Shown: positions 25,404-58,521, counted from the stretch's first letter. The stretch: DNA of 64,000 nt from Alteromonadaceae bacterium M269 (GCA_004353515.1 SMNZ01000002.1:558001-622000); one strand, 5' to 3'. Notes: generated from the sequence alone by a model not told the origin. Numbers and translations are program-made.

Positions 25404-25528
25404 TAAAATCAAAGGGCTTGCCGACCCATTAATAAAAGTGTCATATACTAAAGGGATAATTTAATTAAGAGAGTAGAAATACCAAAAGTTAGACTTTCGA
25501 GCTTTTGGGTAACATTTTAGGTTTGTCC

Positions 25529-26215
25529 ATGTCAAAACGTATATTAATGGTAGAAGATGAAGCGCCAATTCGTGAAATGGTGAAGATCATCCTAGAGCAA
25601 AATGGCTACGAAACAATAGAAGCTGAAGACTATGATATCGCTTTGGAAAAAATAGGGGAGCCGTATCCTGATTTGATCCTACTCGATTGGATGTTACCTG
25701 GTGGTAGTGGTGTTCAGTTAGCGAAGAAACTCAAGCAACTTGAGTTTGTTAAAGACATTCCTATTATTATGCTAACGGCGCGCGGCGAAGAAGAAGACAA
25801 AGTCCGTGGTTTGGATGCAGGTGCGGATGATTATGTCACTAAGCCTTTTTCACCAAAAGAGCTGATTGCACGTATCAAAGCGGTTATTCGACGCGCAACA
25901 CCTATGTCGAATGATGATCTCATTGAATTTAATGGATTGTCTCTCGATCCTGTTTCTCACCGAGTATCAGTTAACTCATCGCCGATCGATATGGGACCAA
26001 CGGAATTTAAACTACTTCATTTTTTCATGACTCATACCGAACGCGTTTTTAGTCGTGAACAATTACTCAACAACGTTTGGGGAACGAACGTTTACGTTGA
26101 AGACCGCACGGTTGACGTACACATTAGACGTTTGCGTAAAGCAATATCAGCTGCAGGTCATGATGACATGATACAAACTGTTCGTGGAGCTGGTTACCGC
26201 TTCTCGACAAGGTAA
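25529..26215 (+). CDS. phoB: Phosphate regulon response regulator PhoB
   Basis: Activates phosphate-starvation genes when phosphorylated by PhoR. The 228 residues comprise a receiver (phosphoacceptor D53 in LLDWMLPG, lysine in TKPFSPKE near 105) and an OmpR-type winged helix (ending [37 protein letters not shown]). The ATG at 25529 gives the E. coli length of 229 minus one; an upstream in-frame start at 25505 adds eight residues without family support. A Pho box lies 140 bases upstream. Forms an operon with phoR and the PstS-like gene. Confidence 0.96.
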
Positions 26216-26293: not shown

Positions 26294-27622
26294 GTGTATA
26301 AACGCTTTTCTTGGCTTAAGACAATGACCAATGTCTTAGTCTATTTTTCTATTGTTGCTATCTTAGGGCTGTTTATTGATAGGTTATTTCTGTGCTTGTG
26401 GTTAGCAACTGTAGCTTTGCTAATGATTCACTATTGGCAGTTGTTTCGACTCAATCGTTGGTTATGGCATAGCAAGAAAATGACACCTCCCAAAGCGAAA
26501 GGGCTTTGGGGACATATTTATGATGGCGTTTATTTTCTGCAGCGTAGGAATAGAAATAAACGTAAAGAACTCGGTATGTTGGTTAGGCGTTTTCGTGAAG
26601 GTTCTGAAGCCTTACCGGATGCAGCAGTTGTTGTTGATGCTGATGCCTGTATTGTTTGGTGCAACCGGCTAGCCAGGATTGAACTTGGCCTGCGTTGGCC
26701 TGCGGATATTGGTCGTCGGATAGACAACCTGATTCGACACCCTGATTTTATTCGATTCTTTCAGGGCGGACATTACGAGAATCCTATAGAAGTCATTAGC
26801 CCTGCGAATGATCAAAAAATATTAGAGTATCGGGTGATGCCCTATGGTGATAAGCACTTACTTTTGATTGCTCGTGACGTCACACGAGTAACGCAAATGG
26901 ATCAGATGCGTAAAGACTTCGTCGCTAACGTTTCTCATGAACTACGTACACCTTTGACCGTTGTAACTGGCTACTTAGAAATGCTATCTGGTGATGAGGA
27001 ATATCCTCCTTTCTTTATTGGGAAAGCGTATGATGAAATGTCTTCTCAAACTAGGCGTATGCAAAGCCTGATTGAGCAGTTATTGATATTGTCTCGTATA
27101 GAGGCGAGTTCAGAGCCTGTTTACGAGAAGATTGTTGATGTTCCGACTTTACTCAAAACAATTGAGGTAGAAGCGGCGACATTGAATCAAGCGAAGCATC
27201 ATAAGATTAATTTCGATATTGATCCCAACCTAACCGCATTTGGTGTAGAAACTGAGTTGAGAAGCGCTTTCTCGAACTTGATCTTTAATGCCGTTCATTA
27301 CACGCCAGATGGTGGTGAAATTAATGTTCGATGGCAACTTGATGGAACGCAAGCACATTTTTCCGTCCAAGATAACGGAGATGGCATACCACAGAAGCAC
27401 TTAACTCGTATCACAGAACGATTCTATCGTGTAGATAAAGCACGTTCGCGCAAGACGGGCGGATCTGGCTTAGGTTTGTCTATCGTTAAGCATGTATTAA
27501 ACCACCACAACTCTAAGCTTGAAATAAAGAGTACGGTGGGCGAAGGTAGTACTTTCTCTTTTGCTTTCTCTGAAGAGCTGACAATGGCTAATAAGACAAT
27601 CACGGAAACTGGCCTTGCTTAA
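26294..27622 (+). CDS. phoR: Phosphate regulon sensor histidine kinase PhoR
   Basis: A membrane-anchored kinase that phosphorylates PhoB when phosphate is low and is silenced through PhoU and PstCAB. The 442 residues have two adjacent hydrophobic segments (about 13-50) with almost no periplasmic loop, a PhoR-specific cytoplasmic linker, a PAS domain (about 100-195), the DHp motif FVANVSHELRTPLT with H215, and the ATPase domain with N, G1 (DNGDGIP) and G2 (KTGGSGLGLSI) boxes. The start is GTG. It overlaps the next gene by eight bases. Confidence 0.95.
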   Translation: MYKRFSWLKTMTNVLVYFSIVAILGLFIDRLFLCLWLATVALLMIHYWQLFRLNRWLWHSKKMTPPKAKGLWGHIYDGVYFLQRRNRNKRKELGMLVRRFREGSEALPDAAVVVDADACIVWCNRLARIELGLRWPADIGRRIDNLIRHPDFIRFFQGGHYENPIEVISPANDQKILEYRVMPYGDKHLLLIARDVTRVTQMDQMRKDFVANVSHELRTPLTVVTGYLEMLSGDEEYPPFFIGKAYDEMSSQTRRMQSLIEQLLILSRIEASSEPVYEKIVDVPTLLKTIEVEAATLNQAKHHKINFDIDPNLTAFGVETELRSAFSNLIFNAVHYTPDGGEINVRWQLDGTQAHFSVQDNGDGIPQKHLTRITERFYRVDKARSRKTGGSGLGLSIVKHVLNHHNSKLEIKSTVGEGSTFSFAFSEELTMANKTITETGLA

Positions 27623-28556
27623 GCGACTATTGCGCAAGTTCCATTTAGCGCTTGTTATCATTTCTTGTTCAACATTAGCTTGGGGCGATGATTATGAGCC
27701 TGTGCCAGGTGTGGATGGCAAAATCATCTCTGTAGGCTCTGATACCTTGGCTAGCCTGATGACTTTCTGGGCTGAGGGATTTAAGCAACAGTATCCCAAT
27801 GTTAATATTCAAATTCAGGCATCAGGGTCATCGACAGCTCCTCCAGCTCTGACAGAAGGAACGGCTAATATAGGCCCCATGAGCCGCCCGTTGAAGCCCA
27901 GTGAAATCAGTTACTTTGTTGAAAAGTATGGCTATGAACCCACAGTATTGAAAGTTGCTATTGACGCAATCGCTGTCTTCGTCAATAAACAAAATGCATT
28001 AGATGGATTGTCGCTAAAGCAGTTGGATTCGCTGTTTTCGGTAACACGATATTGCGGATATGGTCAGCAGATAAAACGATGGCGTGAGTTAAACCCTGAA
28101 AGCTCATCTAAAGGTGTTATTGAGCTTTACGGTCGTAACTCAGTCTCTGGTACTTACGGTTTATTTAAACAAGTCGCGTTATGTAATGGCGATTTTAAGG
28201 CTGAAGTGAATGAACAGCCGGGGTCAGCTGCTGTTGTTCAGTCTGTTGCGTATTCGAAACAAGCTATTGGCTATGCTGCTTTTGGATATAAGACCGCTGG
28301 TGTTCGAATGTTGCCATTATCAATAGACAAAGAGTCTTATATCCATCCTACGACTCAAACTATTGCTGATGGTAGTTATCCATTGTCTCGTTTTCTGTAC
28401 CTGGTTGTTAATAAAGCACCTAGCACACCTTTACCTCGATTAGAAAAAGAGTTTATTCGTTATATTCTTTCTTCACAGGGGCAAAACATTGTGAAGAGAG
28501 TAGGTTATATTCCTCTCTCCCAAAAACTCATTGAACAGCAAGTTATAGAGTTATAA
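27615..28556 (+). CDS. PstS-like phosphate ABC transporter substrate-binding protein
   Basis: A 313-residue periplasmic binding protein with a signal peptide (residues 1-24, ending LAWG). Phosphate-binding features resemble PstS: VGSDTLASLMTFWAEGF, IQASGSSTAPPALTEGTANIGPMSRPL, and YGRNSVSGTYGLFKQ. It is shorter at the end than E. coli PstS and belongs to the PBP-like group also called phosphate-binding protein. The start is a TTG overlapping phoR, so translation is coupled. pstC, pstA and pstB lie about 23 kb away, so either this is their binding partner encoded apart, or it serves sensing by PhoR. Confidence 0.87.
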   Translation: MLKRLLRKFHLALVIISCSTLAWGDDYEPVPGVDGKIISVGSDTLASLMTFWAEGFKQQYPNVNIQIQASGSSTAPPALTEGTANIGPMSRPLKPSEISYFVEKYGYEPTVLKVAIDAIAVFVNKQNALDGLSLKQLDSLFSVTRYCGYGQQIKRWRELNPESSSKGVIELYGRNSVSGTYGLFKQVALCNGDFKAEVNEQPGSAAVVQSVAYSKQAIGYAAFGYKTAGVRMLPLSIDKESYIHPTTQTIADGSYPLSRFLYLVVNKAPSTPLPRLEKEFIRYILSSQGQNIVKRVGYIPLSQKLIEQQVIEL

Positions 28557-28695: not shown

Positions 28696-29118
28696 TTACA
28701 GGTTAAATGCGATTAAACCTGGGATATCCTTATTGCTGTTTTCATCTAGTAATAAGAAATCATATTGTTTCTGTAAGCCTACAACGGTAACTGCTTGGTC
28801 ATTTGCAATCACTGGCTCAAACCGTGTTTTAGCCAATGCTTGTACTGATGAGCGAATGAAGCGCTTCGTACCTTTAAAGCTAACCACTTTAATATTTTCT
28901 GGCTCGCCTTGTTTATTCAGATCATAAGATAAAACAACTTGTCCGTGTTTCTTCTGAGTGATTGCAGTACTTGGATAAACCGGCATGACATTTTTCACTT
29001 TTACAATATCAATACCTGATTCAACTAAATCGTTAGCGTTGATAGTTGATGCTGAAGTGCTTAGGGACGCCACTGCAAGTACACCAATTGCTGACAATTT
29101 TACCATTAACTTTTTCAT
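28696..29118 (-). CDS. Periplasmic TonB C-terminal-domain protein
   Basis: A 140-residue secreted protein made of a signal peptide (about 1-24, ending in STSAS) and one TonB C-terminal domain (NVMPVYPSTAITQKKHGQVVLSYDLNKQGEPENIKVVSF, then FIRSSVQALAKTRFEP). It lacks the membrane anchor and the proline-rich linker of true TonB, so it cannot itself transmit the ExbBD energy. ATG at 29118 follows AGAGGTG; an upstream GTG at 29124 is less good. A sigma70 promoter overlaps an operator-like GTATATAC site. It diverges from a ribbon-helix-helix gene. Possible roles are a TonB-domain adaptor at the outer membrane or a free periplasmic protein; none is established. Confidence 0.82.
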   Translation of the reverse strand: MKKLMVKLSAIGVLAVASLSTSASTINANDLVESGIDIVKVKNVMPVYPSTAITQKKHGQVVLSYDLNKQGEPENIKVVSFKGTKRFIRSSVQALAKTRFEPVIANDQAVTVVGLQKQYDFLLLDENSNKDIPGLIAFNL

Positions 29119-29152: not shown

Positions 29153-29290
29153 GTATATACCTGAAAAATCCAACGGATATTCAAGAGATAACTTAAGTAT
29201 ATACATTCAATATCTTTAGTCAACAATTTAATTTTTCTGTAGCCTTTATGTAATAAATCTGTAACATAAATACTGTATTGAAGTATATAC
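29153..29290. repeat. Three GTATATACATT repeats, operator candidates
   Basis: The palindrome GTATATAC occurs at 29153-29160, 29197-29204 and 29283-29290. Each is extended to GTATATACATT, the first copy in the opposite orientation and the other two preceded by AA. An additional CTTAAGTAT relative lies at 29298-29306 in reverse. The second copy overlaps the -10 of the leftward promoter and the third overlaps a TATATA -10 candidate for the rightward gene. The arrangement fits binding by the small ribbon-helix-helix protein encoded alongside. Confidence 0.7.
29196..29223 (-). promoter_or_regulatory. Sigma70 promoter of the TonB-domain gene
   Basis: TTGACT (29223-29218), 16 bases, TATACT (29201-29196) on the minus strand. 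It would start transcription near 29189 and give a leader of about 70 bases. The -10 falls within a GTATATAC repeat. Confidence 0.65.
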
Positions 29291-29509: not shown

Positions 29510-30106
29510 TAAAGTTAGCCTCAACAGAACACGCATATTTAAAGGAGATTTTCGGAGATTGGAACAAAAGGTAAATAACCTATTCGATCTCCCTCAGCCT
29601 ACCCCCAATCATATCGTTGGTTCCTTACATCAATTATCACTGTAAATAAAAGCAAAATTACATTACCCGTCCCGTGAATTTCTTTGATTGAACACATTAA
29701 ATTAGAGGGAGGTAATTCGTAGTTAAGGTGTAAAGGATTGTATTGTTTACTTTCCGAATATGCCTAGAGATCAAAAATAGCAATTGTTAATTCCAACGGT
29801 AATAGAAGCCTTAACCATCAAATATAAGCTCAATATTGCCAATAAAAACCGAATTACAAGACTACTGAATGGGCCACCGATACCCTGACTCCTTGCTGCT
29901 CCAAAAGCATTAGATGAAAGCTATTAGGAATTGTTACGCCGTTGTCTTAAAAGCGACATATAACTGAAAAATACCGTGTTGGTTTAATAATTTACCATAC
30001 TGTTAAAGTTTTATGACACCGACTTGTTGTAACAAAACCGTCATCTGTTGAAAGTAATCTGTGCGCCGAATTCTGATAACCAACTAAATTCCTCTTGGAG
30101 CACTTG
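29510..30106. other. Intergenic region, mostly unexplained
   Basis: This 597-base spacer separates the ribbon-helix-helix gene from the lipoprotein gene. The right end carries the Pho-box-like sites listed separately. A 28-codon frame starting with TTG at 29559 behind an AGGAG is visible but unsupported. The middle is AT-rich with scattered stops in all frames, and may be decayed sequence. Confidence 0.5.
30001..30060 (+). promoter_or_regulatory. Possible Pho-regulated promoter of the lipoprotein-receptor pair
   Basis: On the minus strand, 30019-30001 reads GTGTCATAAAACTTTAACA, matching the Pho box at 16 of 19 positions. On the plus strand TTGTAACAAAACCGTCATC (30027-30045) matches at 14 of 19, with TAATCT (30055-30060) nine bases downstream as a -10. 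Either site could bind PhoB; the plus-strand one has the correct geometry for the lipoprotein gene. Confidence 0.45.
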
Positions 30107-31891
30107 ATGGAACTCAAAGATTTATACAAAGTTTCTGCAATCGCAGTAGCGTTAGGACTTACCGCCTGTGGCGGCGGTGATATTAACTTGGATGCTAGCT
30201 CTGTTGATAACTCAACAGATAACAGTACAACTACAACTACAACTCCAACGACTCCGACTGAAGAAACCAATCCTTGTGCTTCATATGTTGATGAAGTTGG
30301 TGTAACACAGCAAGGTGATGTTGAAGATGACGTCAACTGCCGTTACAACGCACAGTTTGTAAGTTCTTCAAATGAAATTCTTACAAACGTTACTTTTGAA
30401 GAGCTTCCAAATGGTGGTGCTCACATCTTCAACGAGAGCCTTTATATTGGCGAAAACTTCTCTTCTTTAGCTGATGCAACTACCGCAGGTATCAGCCGAG
30501 GCGGTGATGGTCCTACATTATTTATTGAAGCTGGTGCGACATTAGCATTCCAACCTGCTCGCGCACTAGTTATTAACCGCGGTTCACAAATCCGCGCAGA
30601 AGGTACTGCAGCAAACCCAATTACTATTACGTCAGAAACTGATGTAGACAACCAAGTTACTCCAGAAGCGACACAGGAATGGGGCGGTGTTGTTATTAAC
30701 GGTTTTGGTTTTACTAACGCATGTCAATACATGCCTGGCTGGAACTTTGAGCCAAATACGGACAACAGTAACCCTCTTACTCTTGTAACGGGTACGGATT
30801 GCTCTATCGCAGTTGAAGGCCTTATCGGAAACGATGAGTCAAACTTCGGTGGTTCTCTTCCAGAAGATAACTCTGGTGTACTGAACTATGTTGTTGTTAA
30901 GCACGCCGGTGCAGCGCTTTCTCCAGGTAATGAGCTTAACGGTATCACTTTTGGTGCTGTTGGTAGCCAAACACAACTATCTAACATTGAAATTTACTCA
31001 AATGTAGATGACGGTATCGAGTTCTTCGGCGGTGGCGCTGACATGACAAACTATGTTGCTGTTTACGTGCAAGACGATTCAATCGATATCGATGATGGTT
31101 ACTACGGAACAATCAACAATGCATTAGTTGTTCAAGGTGGCGGTCTAGATACATCTGTAGGTTCTCGTACAGGTGCACACTGTATCGAATCTGATGGTGC
31201 TTCTGCTCGTAACGAAAATGACGTTTTCGACGAAGATTACCTAAGTCGCGCAACTATTAATAACTTAACTTGTATTAGCTCTGCGAAAGACCGTGGTACT
31301 GCTGGTAACGGTGATGGCGGTGCAGGTGTGAACTTCGAAGAAGGTCACATAATCTCTGTTAACAACTCTATCATCACAACTGCTTATGCAGGTGACGATA
31401 CATCTGAAAACAACAACTACTGCTTCCAAGCAGAAGATGGTTTAGATGCTATTCAGCTTGCAGCGGGCCTACTAACTTTCGATGGTAACCTATTCGTATG
31501 TCCGGACTTGACTGCAAATAGCAGCCGCGATGCACTTAGCTTAACTGTTGACACGACAGACCCACAATATGTTGAAGCACTAACTCGTCGTGCTGATGGC
31601 GCAGCTGGTCCTTTCACTGGTCCTGCAGTTAACTTCCTAACTGATACTGGTAACGTTCTATCAAATGCACTTGTACGTGCAGATGAAGGCGTAACAACTA
31701 ATGTTCTTAATGGTTTCCTGGCAGTTCCTGTTGCAGATATCTTAGTTGAAGGTGCTCCGCTTCCGGCTGGATTTGCACAACCTGGTGCAACCTTTACTAA
31801 CGCTGATTTGGTATGGACATTCGGTCTACTAGATGGTTCTCGTAGCCAACCTTTATGGTTTGAAGACGGCCAAACACCTGGGCCTCGTTAA
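30107..31891 (+). CDS. Surface lipoprotein with beta-helix-like repeats
   Basis: A 594-residue predicted lipoprotein: signal peptide ending in the lipobox LTAC with C21, then a Gly/Asp start and a Thr/Pro-rich linker (about 37-52). The rest is rich in short Asn/Gly/Asp turns and strand repeats, such as PTLFIEAGATLAFQPARALVINRGSQIRAEGTAANPITITSE, GVLNYVVVKHAGAAL, and INNALVVQGGGLD, which suggest a right-handed parallel beta-helix. Cysteine pairs are scattered. I do not recognise a catalytic motif. GGAG at 30098-30101 supports this ATG. It precedes a TonB-dependent receptor by 96 bases, so a receptor-associated surface lipoprotein capturing the ligand is the likeliest role. Confidence 0.75.
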   Translation: MELKDLYKVSAIAVALGLTACGGGDINLDASSVDNSTDNSTTTTTTPTTPTEETNPCASYVDEVGVTQQGDVEDDVNCRYNAQFVSSSNEILTNVTFEELPNGGAHIFNESLYIGENFSSLADATTAGISRGGDGPTLFIEAGATLAFQPARALVINRGSQIRAEGTAANPITITSETDVDNQVTPEATQEWGGVVINGFGFTNACQYMPGWNFEPNTDNSNPLTLVTGTDCSIAVEGLIGNDESNFGGSLPEDNSGVLNYVVVKHAGAALSPGNELNGITFGAVGSQTQLSNIEIYSNVDDGIEFFGGGADMTNYVAVYVQDDSIDIDDGYYGTINNALVVQGGGLDTSVGSRTGAHCIESDGASARNENDVFDEDYLSRATINNLTCISSAKDRGTAGNGDGGAGVNFEEGHIISVNNSIITTAYAGDDTSENNNYCFQAEDGLDAIQLAAGLLTFDGNLFVCPDLTANSSRDALSLTVDTTDPQYVEALTRRADGAAGPFTGPAVNFLTDTGNVLSNALVRADEGVTTNVLNGFLAVPVADILVEGAPLPAGFAQPGATFTNADLVWTFGLLDGSRSQPLWFEDGQTPGPR

Positions 31892-31924
31892 TTAGCGCTC
31901 ATTCCTTTTTGAGTAGCCAGTCTT

Positions 31925-31951
31925 AGAAGGGTGCTTAGTTGCGCCCTTTCT
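31925..31951 (+). terminator. Weak hairpin between lipoprotein and receptor genes
   Basis: AAGGGTGC (31927-31934) pairs with GCGCCCTT (31941-31948) through one G-U pair, and flanking bases extend it. There is only a poor U-run, so it may reduce but not block read-through into the receptor gene. Confidence 0.45.
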
Positions 31952-31987
31952 TATGTAAGTACCAAATAATTATTAAGATCTAAACTG

Positions 31988-34765
31988 ATGAAAACGAATA
32001 GAAAATCTTTGAAAGCTAGTCGCGTGGCATTTCCACTTAGCTTACTTTCGGTTGCAATTTCTGCTTCTGTTTTTGCCCAGACTGAAGCCGAGCAAGCACG
32101 AGCTGTTACAGAACAAATAGTGGAAGTTCAGCGTGTTGAGCGCATACAAGTTTTAGGAAGAACAAGAAGTGCAGCTGAAGAAACAGTGCTTGAGCGATTA
32201 GAGGCGGATAGTGTAGTAGACCTTCTAAGTGCAGACCAGATTGCTAGGGTTGGAGACACAAATGTTGCAGATTCACTTCGTCGTGTACCTGGCTTAACGC
32301 TGGTAGATGGCAAGTTTGTGTACATTCGTGGCTTAGGCGAAAGATACTCATCAGCAACGTTGAACGGTGCTACTGTGCCTTCTCCAGATCTTACTCGTAA
32401 CGTTATCCCATTAGATATCTTCCCCACAGCGATTGTTGAGTCCTTATCTGTACAAAAAGGCTACTCAGCGAATAGAGGTGCAGCGTTTGGTGGCGGTGCG
32501 ATTGATATTCGCACAACATCCATTCCAGACGGCTTTGTCGGTTATATTGGTGCTAGTGGTGGGGCCAATAGTATTTCTGATGAGTACTTAGATTATCCTG
32601 GTGGTAACGATTTTGGTGACGAAGATGGTTCTCGAGCACTTTCTTCTGACATTACTAATACGCTGAATACGACTTTTATTAATGGTGGTGATTTCGACCT
32701 TAGCGCAAACGCTATCCAACAAACGGCTGCTAGAAATGGCTCACCTATTAGCTTAGCGCAAGCAGAAAACCTTAATAGGCAGCTTGCAACAACCATAGGT
32801 CGCGACTTAGACGTTTCTTTAAACGATAGATCGGTACAAGACTGGAGCTTCAGTGGTGGTATCGGTGATGCTATCGATATTGGCACTGAGTGGACTCTTA
32901 GTGGATTGGCAACGTTTAACTACGGTGAATCAATCCGTACACAAGAGCGTATCAATCGACGCTTAGAAGAGCCTGAAGAAGAGTTTATAGAACAAACTAA
33001 ATCTACTCAAAACGCAAGCCTAACTGTTACAGCGGGTGCAGCGTTAAAATGGGGTAGCGAGCATACGCTTGAGAATAAGAACTTCTTTATCAGAAATACC
33101 GATGATGAAACTTTCTTGTCTGATGAATTCAATGATACCAGTGGTTTTAGTTCAGGTAACGGTTTCCGTAACTTCCAAGGTATTTTCGAACAACGTGAAT
33201 TAGAAGTGTACCAGTTTTCAGGTAAACACATATTCTCTGATGACACACTAGGCTTAGTAGGTTGGGAAGATTCATTCCTTAATGGCCTCGAGTTGAATTG
33301 GTTCTTCTCTGACTCAACTGCAACGACTGAAATCCCTAATTCATTTTCAGCTGTCGCTGTTTTTGATAGAGATGTTGATACTGGTGTTATCAGTAACGTT
33401 AATCTCGCGTTGGGTGGTATTGCCAGTAACGGTCTCCAGTTTGAAAACCTTGATCTTGAAGATGAGTTAGAAAGTTCTGGTTTTGATCTGAAGTTGCCAC
33501 TTTACGCAGGTGATTTCATTATTGAACTCAGTGGTGGTGGTCGCGTAGATAAGCGAGCGCGTATTTCAAATCAGTTGAATTTTACTATTGACGGTAACTC
33601 AGCAAACAACACTTTTGTCACTGATTCTATTTCACAGCGTTTTTCTGACGATAATATTTTGAATCCTGACCTTGGATTTGAAATCGCTCTTGAAAATACC
33701 GATTTTGGTCCAAGCTTAGCGGCGACGCAGGTCGATGCAGCCTATGGTCAAGTCGATATTGATTGGAATGGGAAATTCTATCTTGTAGCAGGTTTGCGTT
33801 ACGAAGATTATCGTCAAGTGAGTGCGATTTTTAATCCGCTTGCACTGAATAGCCCTGTACTACCTGATTTGGATCCAGCAACTCTGAATGCAGATGAGCC
33901 TCTGCCGGGCGTATTCCAGGATGATGACTTTTATCCTTCAGTATCCTTAAAATATAGTTTCGATGACGTCATTGGTGATACATGGAACCTTCGTTTGGGC
34001 TGGAGTGAAACTGTTGTTCGCCCAGACTTGCGTGAGATTGTTGATACGTCTTATCGTGACCCGGTCACTGATTTTATTATCTCAGGTAGCTCTGATGTAA
34101 CGCCTTCGGAAATTACAAACTTAGATTTCCGCTCAGAATGGTACTTTGACAACAGCAATAGCCTTACTGTCAGTTTATTCCATAAAGATATTGTTAATCC
34201 TATAGAGATATTGGCGGAAACAGCTCAAGGTAATGAATTACGAGCGAACGTGCTTAACGTTGGCGAAGCTGAAGTTGCGGGTGTTGAAGTAGAATGGCTT
34301 CTGAACTTAGATTTCCTAGGTGATTTAGGTACGTTGTTCTTCATCCAAGGGAACTATACAAATCTCTTCACCAATGAAATTGATTTGGGAGATGCAATAA
34401 GCGACGCGACCAATCGCCAAAGACAGCTCACACAAGCTTCAGACAATGTTGTTAACTTTGTTCTAGGATTTGATTCGGATCATGGTAAACACTCGGCAGG
34501 CTTGGCGTTTAATACTTTCTCTGAGCGTGTCTTTATCTCGGGTGCTGGTGGTTTTGCAGACTCGTTTGAGCAACCGTTTGACTCTCTTGATTTCACCTAT
34601 ACGTACTTTATTACAGAACAGCTGCAATTGAAGTTTAAAGCTAGAAACTTACTCGATGACTTCAATGAAATTACTCAAGATAATGGTGAAGGTGTTGATG
34701 TTGTTCGTTTCCAACAGGATGTTGGACAGTCATACAGTTTGAGCCTTCGCTATCAGTTCTATTAA
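31988..34765 (+). CDS. TonB-dependent outer membrane receptor
   Basis: A 925-residue energised outer-membrane transporter. Signal peptide residues 1-30 (ending SVFAQ), a TonB-box-like VERIQVLG near 50-57, the plug domain (about 65-190, with LRRVPGLTLVDGKFVYIRGLGERYSSATLNGATVPSPD and VESLSVQKGYSANRGAAFGGGAIDIRT), and a 22-strand barrel ending in the aromatic SLRYQFY. The plug type matches large receptors of marine gammaproteobacteria whose ligands are often unassigned. Its position after the lipoprotein and near phoBR, together with possible Pho boxes upstream, points to a phosphorus-containing ligand, but that is inference. No iron-siderophore genes are nearby. Confidence 0.9.
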   Translation: MKTNRKSLKASRVAFPLSLLSVAISASVFAQTEAEQARAVTEQIVEVQRVERIQVLGRTRSAAEETVLERLEADSVVDLLSADQIARVGDTNVADSLRRVPGLTLVDGKFVYIRGLGERYSSATLNGATVPSPDLTRNVIPLDIFPTAIVESLSVQKGYSANRGAAFGGGAIDIRTTSIPDGFVGYIGASGGANSISDEYLDYPGGNDFGDEDGSRALSSDITNTLNTTFINGGDFDLSANAIQQTAARNGSPISLAQAENLNRQLATTIGRDLDVSLNDRSVQDWSFSGGIGDAIDIGTEWTLSGLATFNYGESIRTQERINRRLEEPEEEFIEQTKSTQNASLTVTAGAALKWGSEHTLENKNFFIRNTDDETFLSDEFNDTSGFSSGNGFRNFQGIFEQRELEVYQFSGKHIFSDDTLGLVGWEDSFLNGLELNWFFSDSTATTEIPNSFSAVAVFDRDVDTGVISNVNLALGGIASNGLQFENLDLEDELESSGFDLKLPLYAGDFIIELSGGGRVDKRARISNQLNFTIDGNSANNTFVTDSISQRFSDDNILNPDLGFEIALENTDFGPSLAATQVDAAYGQVDIDWNGKFYLVAGLRYEDYRQVSAIFNPLALNSPVLPDLDPATLNADEPLPGVFQDDDFYPSVSLKYSFDDVIGDTWNLRLGWSETVVRPDLREIVDTSYRDPVTDFIISGSSDVTPSEITNLDFRSEWYFDNSNSLTVSLFHKDIVNPIEILAETAQGNELRANVLNVGEAEVAGVEVEWLLNLDFLGDLGTLFFIQGNYTNLFTNEIDLGDAISDATNRQRQLTQASDNVVNFVLGFDSDHGKHSAGLAFNTFSERVFISGAGGFADSFEQPFDSLDFTYTYFITEQLQLKFKARNLLDDFNEITQDNGEGVDVVRFQQDVGQSYSLSLRYQFY

Positions 34766-48041: not shown

Positions 48042-48060
48042 ATTGGGCCTTAATGTTGCT

Positions 48061-48110
48061 GAGTTATGATTGTTGCAGCCATAACTCAAGACTCAACTGT
48101 GCTGAGTTAT
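48061..48110 (-). promoter_or_regulatory. Alternative hairpins between ppk and ppx
   Basis: In mRNA order the minus strand carries ATAACTCA (48110-48103, including the ppk stop), TGAGTTAT (48088-48081) and CATAACTC (48068-48061). The central element can pair perfectly with either neighbour. A ribosome terminating on ppk would mask the first copy and favour the second hairpin, which ends about 8 bases before the ppx ribosome site. This could tune ppx translation or act as weak attenuation. Confidence 0.55.
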
Positions 48111-51118: not shown

Positions 51119-53287
51119 TTGTCAACGCGAGTAACGAACAAGCTAGAGATACCTAAAAAGAGAATGGTGGAAGATGCTATTGCAGCTCGCATCATTAAGC
51201 TTGGTGGGTTAACAATTCTCGTCATGCTAGCCGCAATAGTTTGGCATCTGTTGCGTGTGGTTTTGCCACTTGCGGAATCTCCACAAGCAGAAATCCAAAA
51301 GAGCTGGCATTTACCTGATAATTATCGGCTCCTATCAATGGGGGATGTATCGCAAAATCGACCTCTGTGGTTACAGAAAAGGTGCCAGCTCGTACCCGGG
51401 TACTTGGATAACGACGCTGTTATTGCCAAAAGTTCGGATGCGGTTGCCGTTGGGTGCGACGAACATTTTCTTATGCTTCAGGATAGCGCTCATCAACACC
51501 TATTCCGGTATAACAATAGTCAATTGATTATCGAAACGCTAATAGCCTCAGCAACATCTACTCGCAGAAAGTTGCATGGTCAGTTTCGACTTGAACCTGC
51601 GATTCAGGAAACACCAGAAGTTTCTTGGGTAGCAGCAACTAGCGGTGAGAGGTTTGCAACAGCAGCGAAAGTTGGTGAGCGATGGTATGTCTATGGGCTA
51701 GGTCATCATGCCCGTCTAATGCCTGATAACAACTCGTTGCTAGATAAAGGTGATGGGGTGTTAAAAGGTATTGTTGTTAATGCTGATAATATCGTTTTAC
51801 TTCCTAATCAGGAACAAGTGATAGCGTATCAGTCAGATGAGATGAGTTTGTACGATGCAAATGGAGAGCTAATTAGCAATCATCAGTTTGACTCGGCGAT
51901 AAAGAGTATTTCAACTAACCACACAGGCAGATCACTTTTTATCGAAACTGAAAAACAGCCCATGCAAAAATGGGTGGTTAATAATGACAAAGGGCATTTT
52001 ATCTATATGCCTAGCATCGTTTTCGATGTGCCAAAGACAGTTATTGCAAAAGCATTTTCACCCAATGAACAAGCGGCCTTGTTTTTGACTCAAGACGAAG
52101 AGCTACTTTTTGCTAATGTTGTAACCGGAGAGGTTGTTGATACGCAAAGCCTGAATATCCAAGAAATTGATGAGCGAGGGACGCTCGGAAATATGGCGCT
52201 CTACAATGATAGGCTCTATGTCACTTCGGAAACTCAGCTCCATCAATTCATTTTGTCTGGGCAGGCAGCAGTTACAACGAGTTCTCTATTTCAACAATTG
52301 TGGTACGAAGGTTATCCAGAAGCGGACTTTATTTGGCAAAGTACCCCTTCCAATAGCGAGACAGAGGTTAAGTTTAGTTTAATCCCTTTGGTTATAGGCA
52401 GTGTGAAATCCGCGATGTTATCGATGATTGTCGCAATCCCATTAGCTTTAGGTGCTGCAATATATACAGCTTACTTTGCGCCTGAAGCGATCCGAAATAG
52501 CCTAAAACCCGTGATTGAGTTTTTGGAAGCTATCCCGTCCGTGGTTATAGGGTTTGTTGCCGCTGGTTGGATGGCGACTATGACCTTCCAAACCTTGCTT
52601 GCTATGTTGATCAGTATTGTCATATTGCCATTAGTTCTATGGCTTATTGCTATTTACCAATATCGCTTTACTCGAAAATTACCGCGGAAGTGGCAACTAG
52701 GGGCAGAGTGGTTAGCTATTATAGTTCTGTTACTTCTCATGTACCTGACCATTGATGTTGTATTGTCGTTCTGGGGGGGCAGCTCTTTAGCTTCTTATGT
52801 GGCCTATTTTGAAGAAAGTCACTGGAATAAAAGCACACTTGTCGTTGCGTTAGCACTGGGTATCGCTATTGTGCCGACTATTTACTCGATTGCTGAAGAT
52901 GCTATTTACGATGTTCCAATGTCCCTGCGACAAGCTTCGTTTGCCCTAGGGGCTACTCGGTTACAAACGCTTAAGAGGGTTGTTCTTGTTGCTGCTGCTC
53001 CCGCCATGTTATCTGCTGTTATGCTAGGGTTTTCGCGAGCTTTTGGAGAGACTATCTTGGTGTTAATGATTACTGGGAACACTCCAATCGCCGATTGGGA
53101 TTTGATGGCTGGCCTGAGATCTATGACCGCAAATTTGGCTATTGAGTTACCAGAAGCTGAAGTTAATAGTGTTCATTACCGCGTCCTATTCCTCACTGCT
53201 TTGATACTCTTTGCCTTTACTTTCTTTATTAACACGCTTGCTGAATGGGTGAGAGGGAACGTAAGGCGGCGCTACCGTTATGTTTAG
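51119..53287 (+). CDS. pstC: Phosphate ABC transporter permease PstC (long form)
   Basis: One of two membrane subunits of the high-affinity phosphate importer. The 722 residues are far longer than the E. coli form (319). One N-terminal membrane segment (about 28-48) is followed by a large periplasmic domain of about 370 residues with repeat-like beta sequence, and then the permease core (about 420-715) with the EAA-type loop GATRLQTLKRVVLVAAAPAML and GETILVLMITGN. Long PstC forms are common in Vibrio, Shewanella and Pseudomonas. The start is TTG, served by AGGAAAGAG at 51110-51118. No convincing Pho box was found upstream. Overlaps pstA by eight bases. Confidence 0.93.
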   Translation: MSTRVTNKLEIPKKRMVEDAIAARIIKLGGLTILVMLAAIVWHLLRVVLPLAESPQAEIQKSWHLPDNYRLLSMGDVSQNRPLWLQKRCQLVPGYLDNDAVIAKSSDAVAVGCDEHFLMLQDSAHQHLFRYNNSQLIIETLIASATSTRRKLHGQFRLEPAIQETPEVSWVAATSGERFATAAKVGERWYVYGLGHHARLMPDNNSLLDKGDGVLKGIVVNADNIVLLPNQEQVIAYQSDEMSLYDANGELISNHQFDSAIKSISTNHTGRSLFIETEKQPMQKWVVNNDKGHFIYMPSIVFDVPKTVIAKAFSPNEQAALFLTQDEELLFANVVTGEVVDTQSLNIQEIDERGTLGNMALYNDRLYVTSETQLHQFILSGQAAVTTSSLFQQLWYEGYPEADFIWQSTPSNSETEVKFSLIPLVIGSVKSAMLSMIVAIPLALGAAIYTAYFAPEAIRNSLKPVIEFLEAIPSVVIGFVAAGWMATMTFQTLLAMLISIVILPLVLWLIAIYQYRFTRKLPRKWQLGAEWLAIIVLLLLMYLTIDVVLSFWGGSSLASYVAYFEESHWNKSTLVVALALGIAIVPTIYSIAEDAIYDVPMSLRQASFALGATRLQTLKRVVLVAAAPAMLSAVMLGFSRAFGETILVLMITGNTPIADWDLMAGLRSMTANLAIELPEAEVNSVHYRVLFLTALILFAFTFFINTLAEWVRGNVRRRYRYV

Positions 53288-54842
53288 GCTGACAATTAAT
53301 CAACGCCAAAGTGAATCTCTAAGCGTGATGTTATTTGCGTCTGCCATGGCGATCTCAATTATTGCTATCGCTAGCTTATTAGGTGTGATTTTAGTGAAGG
53401 GAACGGGCCATTTTTGGCCGACTAAGATTCAGCTGGTCGAAATGAATGCGGGCCAAGAAGTGAAAAAGTTCTATGGGCAGTTGGTTTCGGAATCGAGTTA
53501 TTCAGATAGAAGTGAAATCACCAAACAATACCGTATGACCGACTGGGATCGTCTGGGCTTTTCATCTGTCTATATAGATGACGCTTCTAACTCGATGGAA
53601 GGTTCATATCCTGTAGATGTGGCTCTGCTGACTCTGAGAAGTGGTAGCCAGGTTTTGGCTAAGCCAGTGAGCTTAATCAGTGAGCATAAAGCTCAGCCAT
53701 TGTCGTCTTTTGACCAGCTATTAGTTGAAGTAGCTGCAAACCGGAACCAAGTCGAGTTTATTCTCAATAATCAAATAGCGAGCTTAAATAGTCAGCTTCA
53801 AACTGTAGATATTGCTCAGGAAGAAACTCGTCATCAGCAATTGATAGATGAATATGACCAAGCTAGACATAAAGCTAATGAATTGAAGGCGGCGCTCTCA
53901 AGCTATCTTTTAATTGTTGAAGATGCTTTGGGTACAGTTTATGAATTGCCGTTAAATGATATAGAACGCTATGACTATGTTAACCAGTATTCTCTTTGGG
54001 GAAAGTTTAAATATAGCTTGAGATCAGTTTGGCAATTCATCTCGGAGTCTCCAAAACAACTCTATGCGAGTGGTGGGGTTTTTCCTGCGATATTCGGTAC
54101 TGTTGTCATGGTTCTGGTTATGACGATCTTCGTGACTCCGCTAGGTATTTTGGTCGCTATTTATCTGCATGAATACGCTGCACAGAATCGATTAACAACG
54201 CTTGTACGCATTAGTATCAATAATATGGCTGGGGTGCCGTCCATTGTATACGGCGTTTTTGGGTTAAGTTTTTTTGTTTATGAGCTGGGTGCCGGTATAG
54301 ACAACTGGTTTTTTAAAGAGACATTGCCAGCTCCTACTTTTGGTGCTCCAGGGTTATTTTGGGCGAGCCTAACGATGGCAATGCTAACACTGCCGGTTGT
54401 GGTGGTAGCAACAGAAGAAGGCTTGAGACGTGTGCCAGATTCGCTGCGTATGGGAAGCTATGCTCTGGGTGCAACCCAGTTTGAAACCATTAGAAAAACA
54501 GTCATACCTATGGCTAGCCCAGGTATAATGACAGGGATTATTCTGGCTATCGCTAGAGGTGCTGGCGAGGTGGCACCTTTGATTCTCGTAGGTGCGGTTA
54601 AATTTGCACCGACACTCCCTATAGATAATGAGTACCCCTATATTCATTTTGAGCGACAGTTTATGCACCTTGGTGTTACTGTATTCGACGGTGCTTTTCA
54701 GGGGCAACTCGCTGGTTCCGGTTCAAACATGATGTTTGCCGCATGCCTATTTTTGTTGTTGATTGTCGTGTTGTTAAATATTGTTGCGCAGGTTGTGCGT
54801 CAGCGGTTACGACGTCAATATAACGCCTTATTGGAACACTAA
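53280..54842 (+). CDS. pstA: Phosphate ABC transporter permease PstA (long form)
   Basis: The second membrane subunit, 520 residues against 296 in E. coli. It has one N-terminal membrane segment (about 18-40), a periplasmic insertion with a helical coil region (about 150-205, LNSQLQTVDIAQEETRHQQLIDEYDQARHKANELKAAL) and the permease core from about 265 with the loop GATQFETIRKTVIPMASPGIM. The C-terminal membrane segments are normal. Overlap with pstC indicates coupled translation. Together PstC and PstA carry matching insertions that could dock each other in the periplasm. Confidence 0.93.
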   Translation: MFRLTINQRQSESLSVMLFASAMAISIIAIASLLGVILVKGTGHFWPTKIQLVEMNAGQEVKKFYGQLVSESSYSDRSEITKQYRMTDWDRLGFSSVYIDDASNSMEGSYPVDVALLTLRSGSQVLAKPVSLISEHKAQPLSSFDQLLVEVAANRNQVEFILNNQIASLNSQLQTVDIAQEETRHQQLIDEYDQARHKANELKAALSSYLLIVEDALGTVYELPLNDIERYDYVNQYSLWGKFKYSLRSVWQFISESPKQLYASGGVFPAIFGTVVMVLVMTIFVTPLGILVAIYLHEYAAQNRLTTLVRISINNMAGVPSIVYGVFGLSFFVYELGAGIDNWFFKETLPAPTFGAPGLFWASLTMAMLTLPVVVVATEEGLRRVPDSLRMGSYALGATQFETIRKTVIPMASPGIMTGIILAIARGAGEVAPLILVGAVKFAPTLPIDNEYPYIHFERQFMHLGVTVFDGAFQGQLAGSGSNMMFAACLFLLLIVVLLNIVAQVVRQRLRRQYNALLEH

Positions 54843-54907
54843 TGTCTAAAGAGGTAGGTATTTTGGATATGTGTAGTAGATCACAGGAATACAGGCTTTA
54901 ACAACGC

Positions 54908-55720
54908 ATGTTAGATTTTTTTGCTTCATCACGTACTGAGAAAAACCTGGATGCTTTAGCTGCGGATAAGGTCGCCATTAATGTAAAAGACCTGACGCTG
55001 CATTTTGGTGAAAAACGTGCATTACACAGCATCAGTATGAAAATCCCAAAAAATCAGGTGACGGCACTTATTGGACCGAGTGGTTGCGGTAAATCTACGC
55101 TCATATCTTGCTTCAATCGCATGAATGATTTGATTCCAGGCTGTCGAGTCGATGGTTCGGTGGAAATCGGCGAACGTGATATCTATCACCGAAAGGAAAA
55201 TGTATCAGTTTTGAGGAGTCGTGTGGGGATGGTTTTTCAGAAGCCAAACCCCTTTCCAACATCTGTTTATGAAAACGTCGTTTATGGGTTGCGTATTCAA
55301 GGTATTTCAGAACGTAGGGTGCTTGATAATAAAGCCGAAAGTGCGTTGCGTAATGCTGCTTTATGGGATGAAGTAAAAGACCGCTTGTTTGAATCGGCAT
55401 TAACGCTATCCGGGGGGCAACAGCAACGCTTGGTGATTGCCAGGGCCATTGCTCTGGAACCGGAAATACTGCTGTTAGACGAACCGACGTCAGCGCTCGA
55501 TCCAATTTCTACGCTGACTATCGAAGAACTTATTAATACCTTAAAAGACAAATACACAGTTGTTATCGTGACTCACAATATGCAACAAGCCGCTAGAGTG
55601 TCAGACCAAACTGCCTTTTTATATGAAGGTAAACTGATCGAGTATTCAGATACCAATAGACTCTTTACTATGCCAAGAGAACAGCAAACGGAAGAGTACA
55701 TTACTGGACGATATGGTTAG
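54908..55720 (+). CDS. pstB: Phosphate ABC transporter ATP-binding protein PstB
   Basis: Energises the Pst importer and passes the phosphate status through PhoU to PhoR. The 270 residues have Walker [12 protein letters not shown] near 55-65, Q-loop [17 protein letters not shown], signature [17 protein letters not shown] and Walker [13 protein letters not shown]. The N-terminal 20 residues before VAINVKDL are variable. It lies 65 bases after pstA and 12 before phoU. Confidence 0.96.
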
Positions 55721-55732
55721 GAAGGCGGAGAG

Positions 55733-56455
55733 ATGAAACAAGTCAAAATCAATACACATATCTCCAGAAAGTTTAATCAGGAACTTGAAAACCTTCGTAA
55801 TGCTGTGCTCACCATGGGAGGGATAGTTGAGCAGCAGTTGTCAGATGCATTGGGAGCGTTTAGAGATAACAATAGACGCATGGCTGAAAGTGTAATACTG
55901 AACGATTTCCAAGTTAATTCGATGGAAGTGCAAATTGATGAAGAATGCACACGTATTATTGCAACCAGGCATCCGACGGCTAGTGACCTGAGGTTGGTTT
56001 TAGTTATTGTTAAAGCAACAGCTGATATTGAACGCATTGGTGATGAAGTTGAGCGCATTGCTAATCTCATTATTACTGGAGAGCTTCCTGGTTCTGAAAG
56101 TATTAAAAACAACATGATAGCTACGGGCGATAAAGTGATGGCCATGTTGCGTAAAACATTAAATGCTTTTGCGAGGTTAGATGTCGATTCTGCTTTTGCC
56201 ATTCATAAGTTGGATAAAGAGATCGATAAACAATACAAAGCGCTACTGGCAGAAGCCATTAAAGAAATGCAGCAAGATACCGACTCGCTACCGCAATGGT
56301 TGGAGGTTTTATGGGCAATGCGAGCATTGGAGCGAGTGGGTGATCGATGTAAAAACATCTGCGAATACATTATTTATTTCGTAAAAGGGCGAGATGTGCG
56401 TCATGTTTCGAGAAAAAAAATAGCCGAAGCATTGCGTGAAGGCCAGACAGAATAA
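55733..56455 (+). CDS. phoU: Phosphate signalling protein PhoU
   Basis: A cytoplasmic negative regulator that links PstSCAB with PhoR. The 240 residues are two three-helix PhoU repeats with the metal-binding motifs ADIERIGDEVERIAN (about 100-114) and ALERVGDRCKNICEYI (about 201-216). GGCGGAGAG just before the ATG is a good ribosome site. Last gene of the pst operon; no pstS is encoded here, unlike the standard pstSCAB-phoU order. Confidence 0.95.
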   Translation: MKQVKINTHISRKFNQELENLRNAVLTMGGIVEQQLSDALGAFRDNNRRMAESVILNDFQVNSMEVQIDEECTRIIATRHPTASDLRLVLVIVKATADIERIGDEVERIANLIITGELPGSESIKNNMIATGDKVMAMLRKTLNAFARLDVDSAFAIHKLDKEIDKQYKALLAEAIKEMQQDTDSLPQWLEVLWAMRALERVGDRCKNICEYIIYFVKGRDVRHVSRKKIAEALREGQTE

Positions 56456-56560: not shown

Positions 56561-57235
56561 ATGTCCAATATATTTGGCATTTTTGCAAGGTCTCCGATAA
56601 AGCCTATTGAGCAGCACGCAGACCTCACCGCCTCATGTTGTGAGAAATTAGGTGAACTATTCTTCAGTACTTTGGATCCTGATCCAAAAGCGAGTGAAGA
56701 AATAGTTAATGAAATTTTCTCCATTAATAAAGCTGCTAAAGCGATTGATCGCGAATTACTTATTCATCTTCCCCGTGGTTTATTTATGCCTTTTGACAGG
56801 GCCGATATCTTAGGGATTTTGAGACAACTAAACCGTATCTTAGCCAAGGTAAAAGAAGTGTCGTTGCATGTGCATGGTCGACAGCTTCGTATCCCTGATG
56901 ACATGCAGCCATCATTCAAAGCTTATCTTGAGTTGATGCAATCTGCTGCACGTAAAGCACAATCTTCTATCGATGAACTTGATGAGTTACTTCAAACCGG
57001 TTTTGCTGGTAGAGAAGCAAAACTCGTTGAGTCGAAAATCCGTGAACTGAATGCGCTTGATGAAGATGCAGATGACATGAAATTAAAGCTGATTAAACAG
57101 CTACACCAATACGAATCATCTTTAGACGCTAATCATACGATAGTGACTTATCGAGTGATTGATTGGCTGAGTGACATCATTCACGGCACTCAGGAAATAG
57201 GTGGGCGTCTTTTACTGATGTTAGCAAAAGCATAA
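56561..57235 (+). CDS. DUF47/TIGR00153 family PhoU-like protein
   Basis: A 224-residue cytoplasmic protein of the DUF47 family, PhoU-like all-helical, with acidic motifs such as DEDADDMKLKLIKQLH. DUF47 genes are nearly always paired with pit-type transporters and are thought to regulate them. It ends 23 bases before the pit gene, forming a two-gene operon. The 105-base spacer from phoU includes AT-rich sequence likely to carry a promoter. Confidence 0.92.
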   Translation: MSNIFGIFARSPIKPIEQHADLTASCCEKLGELFFSTLDPDPKASEEIVNEIFSINKAAKAIDRELLIHLPRGLFMPFDRADILGILRQLNRILAKVKEVSLHVHGRQLRIPDDMQPSFKAYLELMQSAARKAQSSIDELDELLQTGFAGREAKLVESKIRELNALDEDADDMKLKLIKQLHQYESSLDANHTIVTYRVIDWLSDIIHGTQEIGGRLLLMLAKA

Positions 57236-57258
57236 TAATAACGTTGGATGTTTAACTC

Positions 57259-58521
57259 ATGACTTTGTTTACCGAGTACGGTTTTATACTCATTCTACTA
57301 GCCGCTTTGTTCGGCTTTTTTATGGCCTGGGGTATTGGTGCAAACGATGTTGCTAACGCTATGGGGACCTCTGTAGGTTCTAGAGCTTTAACGATAAAGC
57401 AAGCACTGATAGTGGCTGTAGTCTTTGAGTTTTCTGGCGCTTATTTAGCTGGGGGACAAGTTACATCAACTATTCGTAAAGGAATAGTTGATATCACTGC
57501 TTTTGAATCGACACCCGAACTGCTGGTGTTCGGTATGCTAGCCTCGCTTATTGCAGCTGGTGCTTGGCTTATTATTGCGTCTTGGCGTGGATGGCCAGTT
57601 TCTACGACACACTCTATCGTTGGTGCGATAGTAGGTTTTGCTGCTGTTGGCTTAGGTACAGAAGCGGTGCAATGGGGCAAAGTTGTAGAGATAGTTGGAA
57701 GTTGGGTGATAACGCCAGCTATTTCAGGGCTTATCGCTTTCGGTATTTTTGTGAGCGCGCAAAAGCTGATTTTTGATACTGCCGACCCTATTGCCAGAGC
57801 GAAGAAATGGGTCCCTGTATACATGTTCCTCTGTGGTTTTGTGATGTCACTTGTAACCATCACCAAGGGGTTGAAACATGTCGGCTTAGATATGACAGGA
57901 ACTCAATCGTTCTTTGTATCACTAGGCGTTGGCCTTGTTGTTTTGGTTATTGGTTCCGTTGTCGTTGGAAAGATGCAAGAAAACGATGAAGTTGATGACC
58001 GAGGTTTTGGTAGCTTAGAGCGTACGTTCGCGGTGTTGATGATAGTGACAGCTTGCTCGATGGCTTTCGCTCATGGCTCAAACGATGTAGCCAATGCGAT
58101 TGGTCCATTGGCCGCTGTCGTTAGTGTCGTGCAATCAGGTGGGGAGCTTGCATCTAAAGCTGCTTTAGCGTGGTGGATATTACCACTAGGTGCAATCGGT
58201 ATTGTCGTTGGTCTTGCCATGTTAGGTGCACGTGTTATTCGCACAGTTGGACAAAGAATTACCGAGTTAACACCAAGCCGAGGCTTTGCTGCTGAGATGG
58301 CAACCGCAAGTACGGTTATTCTAGCAAGTGGAACAGGTTTACCTATCTCAACGACACAAACCTTGGTAGGGGCTGTATTAGGTGTAGGTATGGCTCGAGG
58401 AATTGCAGCACTTAATCTGGGCGTAGTACGTAATATTGTTATCTCATGGATAATCACGCTGCCAATAGGTGCAGGCTTAAGTATTCTGTTCTTCTACATC
58501 ATTAGGTCTATATTCGGCTAG
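57259..58521 (+). CDS. Inorganic phosphate transporter, Pit family
   Basis: A 420-residue low-affinity phosphate (metal-phosphate) symporter of the inner membrane with about ten hydrophobic segments. The duplicated PHO4 signature is present at WGIGANDVANAMGTSVGSRA (about 23-42) and FAHGSNDVANAIGPLAAVV (about 272-291), and the two long inverted repeats flank a cytosolic loop (VVVGKMQENDEVDDRG). With the DUF47 gene upstream this is a complete Pit system, next to the high-affinity Pst genes. Confidence 0.94.
   Translation: MTLFTEYGFILILLAALFGFFMAWGIGANDVANAMGTSVGSRALTIKQALIVAVVFEFSGAYLAGGQVTSTIRKGIVDITAFESTPELLVFGMLASLIAAGAWLIIASWRGWPVSTTHSIVGAIVGFAAVGLGTEAVQWGKVVEIVGSWVITPAISGLIAFGIFVSAQKLIFDTADPIARAKKWVPVYMFLCGFVMSLVTITKGLKHVGLDMTGTQSFFVSLGVGLVVLVIGSVVVGKMQENDEVDDRGFGSLERTFAVLMIVTACSMAFAHGSNDVANAIGPLAAVVSVVQSGGELASKAALAWWILPLGAIGIVVGLAMLGARVIRTVGQRITELTPSRGFAAEMATASTVILASGTGLPISTTQTLVGAVLGVGMARGIAALNLGVVRNIVISWIITLPIGAGLSILFFYIIRSIFG

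Follow-up and report, generated by a model that had tools for sequence, protein, structure and literature searches.

A stretch of 64,000 nucleotides from Alteromonadaceae bacterium M269 (GCA_004353515.1 SMNZ01000002.1:558001-622000), termed the window at its full length of 64 kb, encodes a lipoprotein and a TonB-dependent receptor that form an adjacent pair, preceded by two Pho boxes and surrounded by an island of phosphate genes that spans about 33 kb. The features of the pair, counted from the first nucleotide of the window, are:

30002..30019, minus strand: Pho box 1 (GTGTCATAAAACTTTAAC), the top Pho-box score in the window, conserved in Alteromonadaceae
30027..30044, plus strand: Pho box 2 (TTGTAACAAAACCGTCAT), rank 10 in the window
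30107..31891, plus strand: predicted beta-helix surface lipoprotein of a single unit, 594 aa, with its ATG at 30107 and its stop ending at 31891
31927..31948, plus strand: intercistronic hairpin (z -3.44 for the intergenic stretch)
31988..34765, plus strand: TonB-dependent receptor, 925 aa, with Pfam Plug and TonB_dep_Rec_b-barrel over their cut-offs

The lipoprotein begins with a signal peptide and the lipobox LTAC (MELKDLYKVSAIAVALGLTAC), of which Cys21 is invariant across 44 homologues. No family is matched in Pfam (E up to 1) or NCBIfam, the SusD domain included; a sequence search of the PDB returned only meaningless matches, and no second copy was found in the 5.6-Mb genome. The AlphaFold2 model is a right-handed beta-helix (mean predicted local distance difference test score (pLDDT) 74.5, predicted template modelling score 0.81), in which blocks within residues 57-345 mostly exceed a pLDDT of 90, residues of about 519-551 are of low confidence and the C-terminal part is unmodelled. 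Foldseek gave no match below E 0.001 with this model; thus, the beta-helix claim rests on the model and on VIA-align Z scores, which are 15-21 (up to 20.6) to tailspikes, Vag8, alginate lyases, NosD and polygalacturonases. These results support the predicted fold, which says nothing on activity. The residues invariant in the 44 homologues include GG turns and an acidic ladder (D301, D302 and E305; D323, D324 and D327; E361 and D363), stacked approximately one rung apart in the beta-helix. As candidates for catalytic residues of the pectate-lyase/GH28 type, the ladder positions are invariant, yet no profile of such a family matches. Judged from length, 59 of the homologues have a single beta-helix unit, 43 have two in tandem and 15 have three, with more in the remainder.

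The initial annotation described a 594-residue lipoprotein of beta-helix type, which the open reading frame, lipobox, model and structural matches bear out; it also called the type unassigned, and this is corrected here, as the protein is kin to known lipoproteins of low phosphate, ElpS of Caulobacter and FI-FIII of Flavobacterium. ElpS (Cc0170) is a lipoprotein of Caulobacter crescentus that is induced by phosphate starvation (Le Blastier et al. 2010, PMC2996285). Compared with an ElpS-type protein of Hyphomonas that is encoded next to a type II secretion system (T2SS), the lipoprotein of the window shares 44% identity over 210 residues (E 6e-42), and the two receptors match at E 8e-63.

The receptor has the plug and 22-strand barrel of a TonB-dependent receptor according to Pfam, to its AlphaFold2 model (pLDDT 81) and to structural matches, with a VIA-align Z score of 34 for FecA and of 33 both for BtuB and for BtuB1 in its complex with BtuG1 (8blw). 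The barrel family has 45 matches in the 5.6-Mb genome. Both genes of the pair are on the plus strand and are separated by exactly 96 bases (31892-31987), such that the coordinates and Pfam agree with the earlier description of a 925-residue receptor 96 bases downstream of the lipoprotein. Directly 3' of the receptor gene (35043-36494) lies a LuxO/NtrC-like sigma-54 response regulator that scores below the cut-offs of the listed equivalogs.

The gap between the two genes is structured. Homologous gaps have a median z of -3.4 (n=93) compared to -1.6 in control gaps (n=200; p 2e-15), and strong hairpins of unrelated sequence recur at the same place between lipoprotein and receptor genes. A fixed-pattern terminator scan did not call the hairpin of the window a terminator because its run of T residues is weak. 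The hairpin likely raises expression of the lipoprotein over that of the receptor, which fits the induction of ElpS alongside constant RNA of its neighbor cc0171 in Caulobacter, and the abundance of the lipoprotein FI in Flavobacterium. Simple cotranscription is, thus, a weaker test of the pair.

The Pho boxes were scored by a weight matrix that represents nine E. coli Pho boxes, and the window was scanned on both strands (~128,000 positions). Pho box 1 stands 88 bp before the lipoprotein ATG, and Pho box 2 has a conserved core, TGTAACAAAA(C/G)TGTCA, located some 70-100 bp ahead of the lipoprotein gene. When the upstream region was shuffled 1000 times, the best score was reached in 3 cases. 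Independently of the matrix, the upstream regions of Alteromonadaceae have TTAAAGTTTTGTGACA-N7-TGTAACAAAACTGTCAT in common, and those of Porticoccaceae carry tandem repeats phased by 11 bp. In its exact form, the composite motif has a single occurrence in the 5.6-Mb genome, although its definition was drawn up with this site in view. By sequence criteria, the two boxes are confirmed as a conserved composite inverted pair that exceeds chance, as would suit a member of the Pho regulon; the two Pho-box-like sites of the initial annotation are, thus, real by window ranking, shuffles and conserved motif.

A control scan applied the matrix to the 250 bp upstream of genes in all loci. The lipoprotein upstream regions have a median score of 13.5 in phosphate-linked loci (p 7e-17) and of 13.2 in those gammaproteobacterial loci that lack nearby phosphate genes (p 3e-19), each compared to 5.2 for 890 other genes; these p-values are indicative, as related loci are not independent and the control set includes some true Pho boxes that raise its upper tail. 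The median upstream of receptors is 4.4. Three column-permuted matrices showed no shift, with medians near 5-6.

A further Pho-box-like site (29248-29265, plus strand), with the second-best score in the window, lies upstream of and reverse to a gene for a small TonB_C-domain protein (28696..29115, minus strand; apparent signal peptide; PF03544, E 2.6e-14). This protein may take part in the system of the pair.

Homologs of the lipoprotein are noted in 49 of 296 genomes sampled from the order, a few of them as weak matches to the N-terminal region only, and in 31 of the 299 genomes of the phylum sample. Of 118 homologous loci, 113 have a receptor gene immediately 3' of the lipoprotein gene and in the same orientation, at a median distance of 86 bp; this co-occurrence is conditional on the lipoprotein, on which the locus search was seeded. 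The contexts of these pairs include: (i) phoB-phoR-pstS, in many Alteromonadaceae, often with a TonB2-type motor behind the pair and with an intervening 2-oxoglutarate-Fe(II) oxygenase gene, which several Alteromonas-type loci (e.g., L061:7828-8634) place between pstS and the lipoprotein gene; (ii) pstS-pstC-pstA-pstB-phoU-lipoprotein-receptor, in Porticoccaceae and another metagenome-assembled genome (MAG) of Pseudomonadales; (iii) DUF47-Pit-lipoprotein-receptor beside ppk/ppx, in Paraglaciecola marina, the source of the closest lipoprotein homologue (69% identity); (iv) a complete TonB2-type motor (DUF3450, TtpC-like, ExbB, ExbD, TonB and TPR), which adjoins the pair in many Alteromonadales, including Pseudoalteromonas loci that have no phosphate genes; and (v) gspC/gspD, beside the pair in Hyphomonas and a related genome. 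The motor names TtpB2 and TtpD2 are taken from PMC6957404, and their assignment to the DUF3450 and TPR proteins, respectively, is our own. Three Bacteroidota loci (L127, L139 and L148) with divergent PhoBR-like two-component genes were not counted as phosphate contexts because the regulators tested (L139 and L148) do not reach the cut-offs that NCBIfam sets for PhoB and PhoR. Among the neighbors identified, no cluster for iron, haem or carbohydrates was recognized next to the pair.

The survey for the same pair near pho genes that the initial annotation had proposed, thus, finds it in three kinds of phosphate context, and the consistent ties to iron or carbohydrate genes that would have spoken against its proposal are not seen among the neighbors examined. 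Of the suggested import of an organic or polymeric phosphorus source, the link to phosphate stands, based on Pho boxes, island and the independent phosphate-gene contexts of relatives; the import and its cargo are a reading to be weighed below. In a receptor tree, the window pair groups with those of P. marina, Microbulbifer, Porticoccaceae and other gammaproteobacterial MAGs, and the pairs of other Alteromonadaceae (L083, L061 and others) separate from it with full support, though they occupy the same phoBR-pstS site. The simplest reading is that the window pair probably displaced a resident pair by transfer.

The phosphate island of the window comprises, besides the pair:

25505..26215, plus strand: phoB (TIGR02154, 363.9 bits, cut-off 296.2)
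26294..27622, plus strand: phoR (TIGR02966, 451.2 bits, cut-off 334.2; Pfam PhoR)
27615..28556, plus strand: PstS-family phosphate-binding protein (TIGR02136, 256 bits, cut-off 206.6)
46512-48089, minus strand: ppx (62% identity to P. marina Ppx)
48107-50179, minus strand: ppk (72% identity to P. marina Ppk; Pfam)
51119..56455, plus strand: two permeases, pstB and phoU (Pfam BPD_transp_1 twice and ABC_tran; BLAST identity 55% for PstB and 44% for PhoU)
56561..58521, plus strand: DUF47/PhoU_div and Pit phosphate transporter (37% and 68% identical, respectively, to their P. marina counterparts, for which the Pfam assignments were made)

The phoB and phoR genes, next to which the pair was initially placed, are genuine, with scores above the curated NCBIfam cut-offs, and the two permeases next to pstB are presumably pstC and pstA. 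Among the window genes scanned, neither an extracellular phosphatase nor gsp (type II secretion) genes were found; a GspD-like secretin is encoded on another contig. Genes at 4-11 kb that had been considered as a T2SS cluster were rejected, as they form the his operon. A glucose/sorbosone dehydrogenase (GSDH) gene (45368-46474) adjoins ppx, and a gene of this type adjoins the lipoprotein in one related locus (L080, 6418-7659). GSDH-type enzymes can solubilize mineral phosphate. A complete DUF3450-TtpC-ExbB-ExbD-TonB-TPR motor (L162, G000:C11:531000-550990), preceded by genes for two large proteins of TonB-receptor size, is found on the same contig ~43 kb to the left of the pair.

Based on sequence comparison and analogy, the pair is probably a PhoB-controlled outer-membrane system in which a surface lipoprotein and a TonB gate acquire a phosphorus source. 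The parts of this proposal differ in strength: comparative evidence argues strongly for Pho control, published work on relatives supports induction at low phosphate, and capture and transfer of a ligand by lipoprotein and receptor are suggested by analogy to SusCD and BtuBG. At low phosphate, PhoB would bind the inverted Pho-box pair and drive a transcript through both genes, of which the hairpin probably leaves the lipoprotein product the more abundant. The beta-helix lipoprotein, presumably exposed on the outer face of the outer membrane, would bind, release or process a phosphorus-containing ligand and hand it to the receptor for TonB-powered passage into the periplasm, where PstS-type proteins or Pit would take over. 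In relatives, the pair adjoins Pst, Pit and PhoU genes, all of which serve inorganic phosphate. The adjoining Pst and Pit genes point to inorganic phosphate as the cargo; published suggestions favor organic phosphorus. A tentative and rather unlikely version is that the pair is a TonB-powered importer of inorganic phosphate itself or of polyphosphate, feeding Pst and Pit directly, with the acidic beta-helix perhaps binding the cargo in complex with calcium or a metal.

Several observations weigh against a PhoB-controlled system of phosphorus acquisition. The stronger site, Pho box 1, is reversed relative to the gene, though this placement is itself conserved among Alteromonadaceae. The E. coli-type Pho box is missing upstream of the non-gammaproteobacterial lipoproteins (median score 6.6), and many homologous pairs (Idiomarina, Hyphomonas, Bacteroidota and order families f6, f16 and f20) have no adjoining phosphate genes. 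The lipoprotein is strongly acidic (isoelectric point about 4.1), which argues against binding of free phosphate without a metal. In Caulobacter, the RNA of cc0171 is unchanged with phosphate, ElpS production continues after deletion of cc0171, and a change in intracellular phosphate was not seen (PMC2996285). The link of ElpS to phosphatase activity could, by analogy, reflect a role other than transport.

In one alternative, the lipoprotein would act as an enzyme and not as a ligand-binding cap: as a hydrolase or lyase with a beta-helix of the pectate-lyase/polygalacturonase type, it would cut phosphorylated or sulphated glycans or other matrix, and the receptor would import the freed phosphorus compounds. 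The structural matches to polygalacturonases, alginate lyases and tailspike depolymerases, the invariant acidic ladder (D301/D302/E305, D323/D324/D327 and E361/D363) and the polygalacturonase-like role suggested for the Flavobacterium relatives by Lidbury et al. (PMC8115612) all suit such an enzyme. However, acidic ladders can equally be structural or calcium-binding, a common fold is no proof of activity, and no glycosidase or lyase family of Pfam or NCBIfam is matched; an enzymatic role is conceivable but unlikely.

Import of iron or another metal (e.g., in complex with phosphate) by a receptor merely co-regulated with the phosphate genes is quite improbable, although the closest solved receptor folds are largely transporters of siderophores, haem, cobalamin and metals, and cations are conceivable ligands of the conserved acidic lipoprotein. 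The frequent coupling of iron stress with phosphate stress also counts for import of a metal. By contrast, the neighbors examined across loci include no consistent siderophore or haem cluster, and the Flavobacterium relatives respond to phosphate depletion and not to iron or nitrogen limitation (PMC8115612). Also to be weighed is a receptor that mainly exports, displays or signals, as in release of ElpS and phosphatase, instead of importing a nutrient. ElpS is released by type II secretion and stimulates extracellular alkaline phosphatase (PMC2996285), the Hyphomonas-type and L181 loci adjoin gspC/gspD, and the secretin elsewhere in the genome of the window is GspD-like with three domains. The complete plug and barrel of the receptor are, however, those of import receptors, many Alteromonadales encode a full TonB2-type motor next to the pair, and ElpS was still produced once cc0171 had been deleted; this role is very improbable.

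Phosphate is growth-limiting across much of the ocean, and how phosphorus crosses the outer membrane of marine gammaproteobacteria is poorly known; at stake is what phosphate-induced TonB receptors import. According to the survey, Alteromonadales and their relatives seem to share a Pho-box-controlled module of ElpS-type lipoprotein and TonB receptor, also in many genomes whose gene context alone offers no hint of phosphate. This provides a specific, testable function for a family left unnamed by the Pfam and NCBIfam libraries that were searched. If the pair does import phosphate or polyphosphate, it would be a widespread active counterpart of the passive phosphate porins.

TonB receptors are reported within the PhoB regulon of Caulobacter in a 2024 study (PMC11208175), the main text of a low-phosphate omics study of Pseudoalteromonas (PMC11170926) does not mention TonB, and a search for Pho box and TonB in Alteromonas found nothing in the set of papers covered.

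The closest known system is ElpS-Cc0171. The cc0170 gene adjoins the TonB receptor gene cc0171 and T2SS genes, the co-occurrence of an ElpS-type lipoprotein with a TonB receptor is conserved in Shewanella, Bacteroides and Hyphomonas, and ElpS, released via type II secretion, is linked to more secreted alkaline phosphatase activity (PMC2996285). The window pair shares with it a lipobox lipoprotein directly before a TonB receptor, a link to phosphate starvation (predicted here from the Pho boxes) and a homologous beta-helix family, as tested through the T2SS-adjacent Hyphomonas locus. It differs in its setting, a phoBR/Pst/Pit/Ppk island with clear E. coli-type Pho boxes in which no T2SS genes were found; T2SS adjacency holds for the alphaproteobacterial branch and not for all homologues. 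The Hyphomonas protein has two units, whereas that of the window has one.

In Flavobacterium, Lidbury et al. describe the lipoproteins FI-FIII, which are induced at low phosphate, share 31-36% identity with the Caulobacter protein and, in some cases, are encoded next to low-phosphate TonB transporters; phosphate depletion strongly induces FI and FII together with their adjacent transporters, and no low-phosphate exoprotein is more abundant than FI (PMC8115612). Compared by description, the F. johnsoniae proteins FI (Fjoh_3856), FII (Fjoh_0546) and FIII and the TonB-dependent transporters Fjoh_3857 and Fjoh_0545 (PMC8115612) resemble the window pair in that a pectate-lyase-fold lipoprotein adjoins a TonB receptor, FII is in a PhoBR cluster and the inducer is phosphate depletion, as is predicted for the window pair. 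By contrast, two of these lipoproteins are reported downstream of the receptor, and the phylum is another.

More distant systems share the arrangement of the pair and not its parts. SusCD and the phosphate-responsive PusCD combine a surface lipoprotein with a TonB receptor, whereas the lipoprotein of the window has no SusD domain and is a predicted beta-helix. BtuB-BtuG, for vitamin B12 in Bacteroides, likewise has a surface lipoprotein partner and a receptor of close fold but differs in ligand class and in its lipoprotein, as BtuG is a beta-propeller. The motor genes of the Vibrio TonB2 system (TtpB2-TtpC-ExbB-ExbD-TonB-TtpD; PMC6957404) follow or precede the pair in many relatives; those in the genome of the window are not adjacent to it. 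Thus, by homology, the pair belongs to the widespread, partly studied ElpS-type family and is not novel in kind; what the sequence comparison adds is the near-constant adjacency of lipoprotein and receptor, the phosphate-gene contexts, the conserved hairpin and the predicted Pho boxes, even in gammaproteobacterial loci unlinked to phosphate genes.

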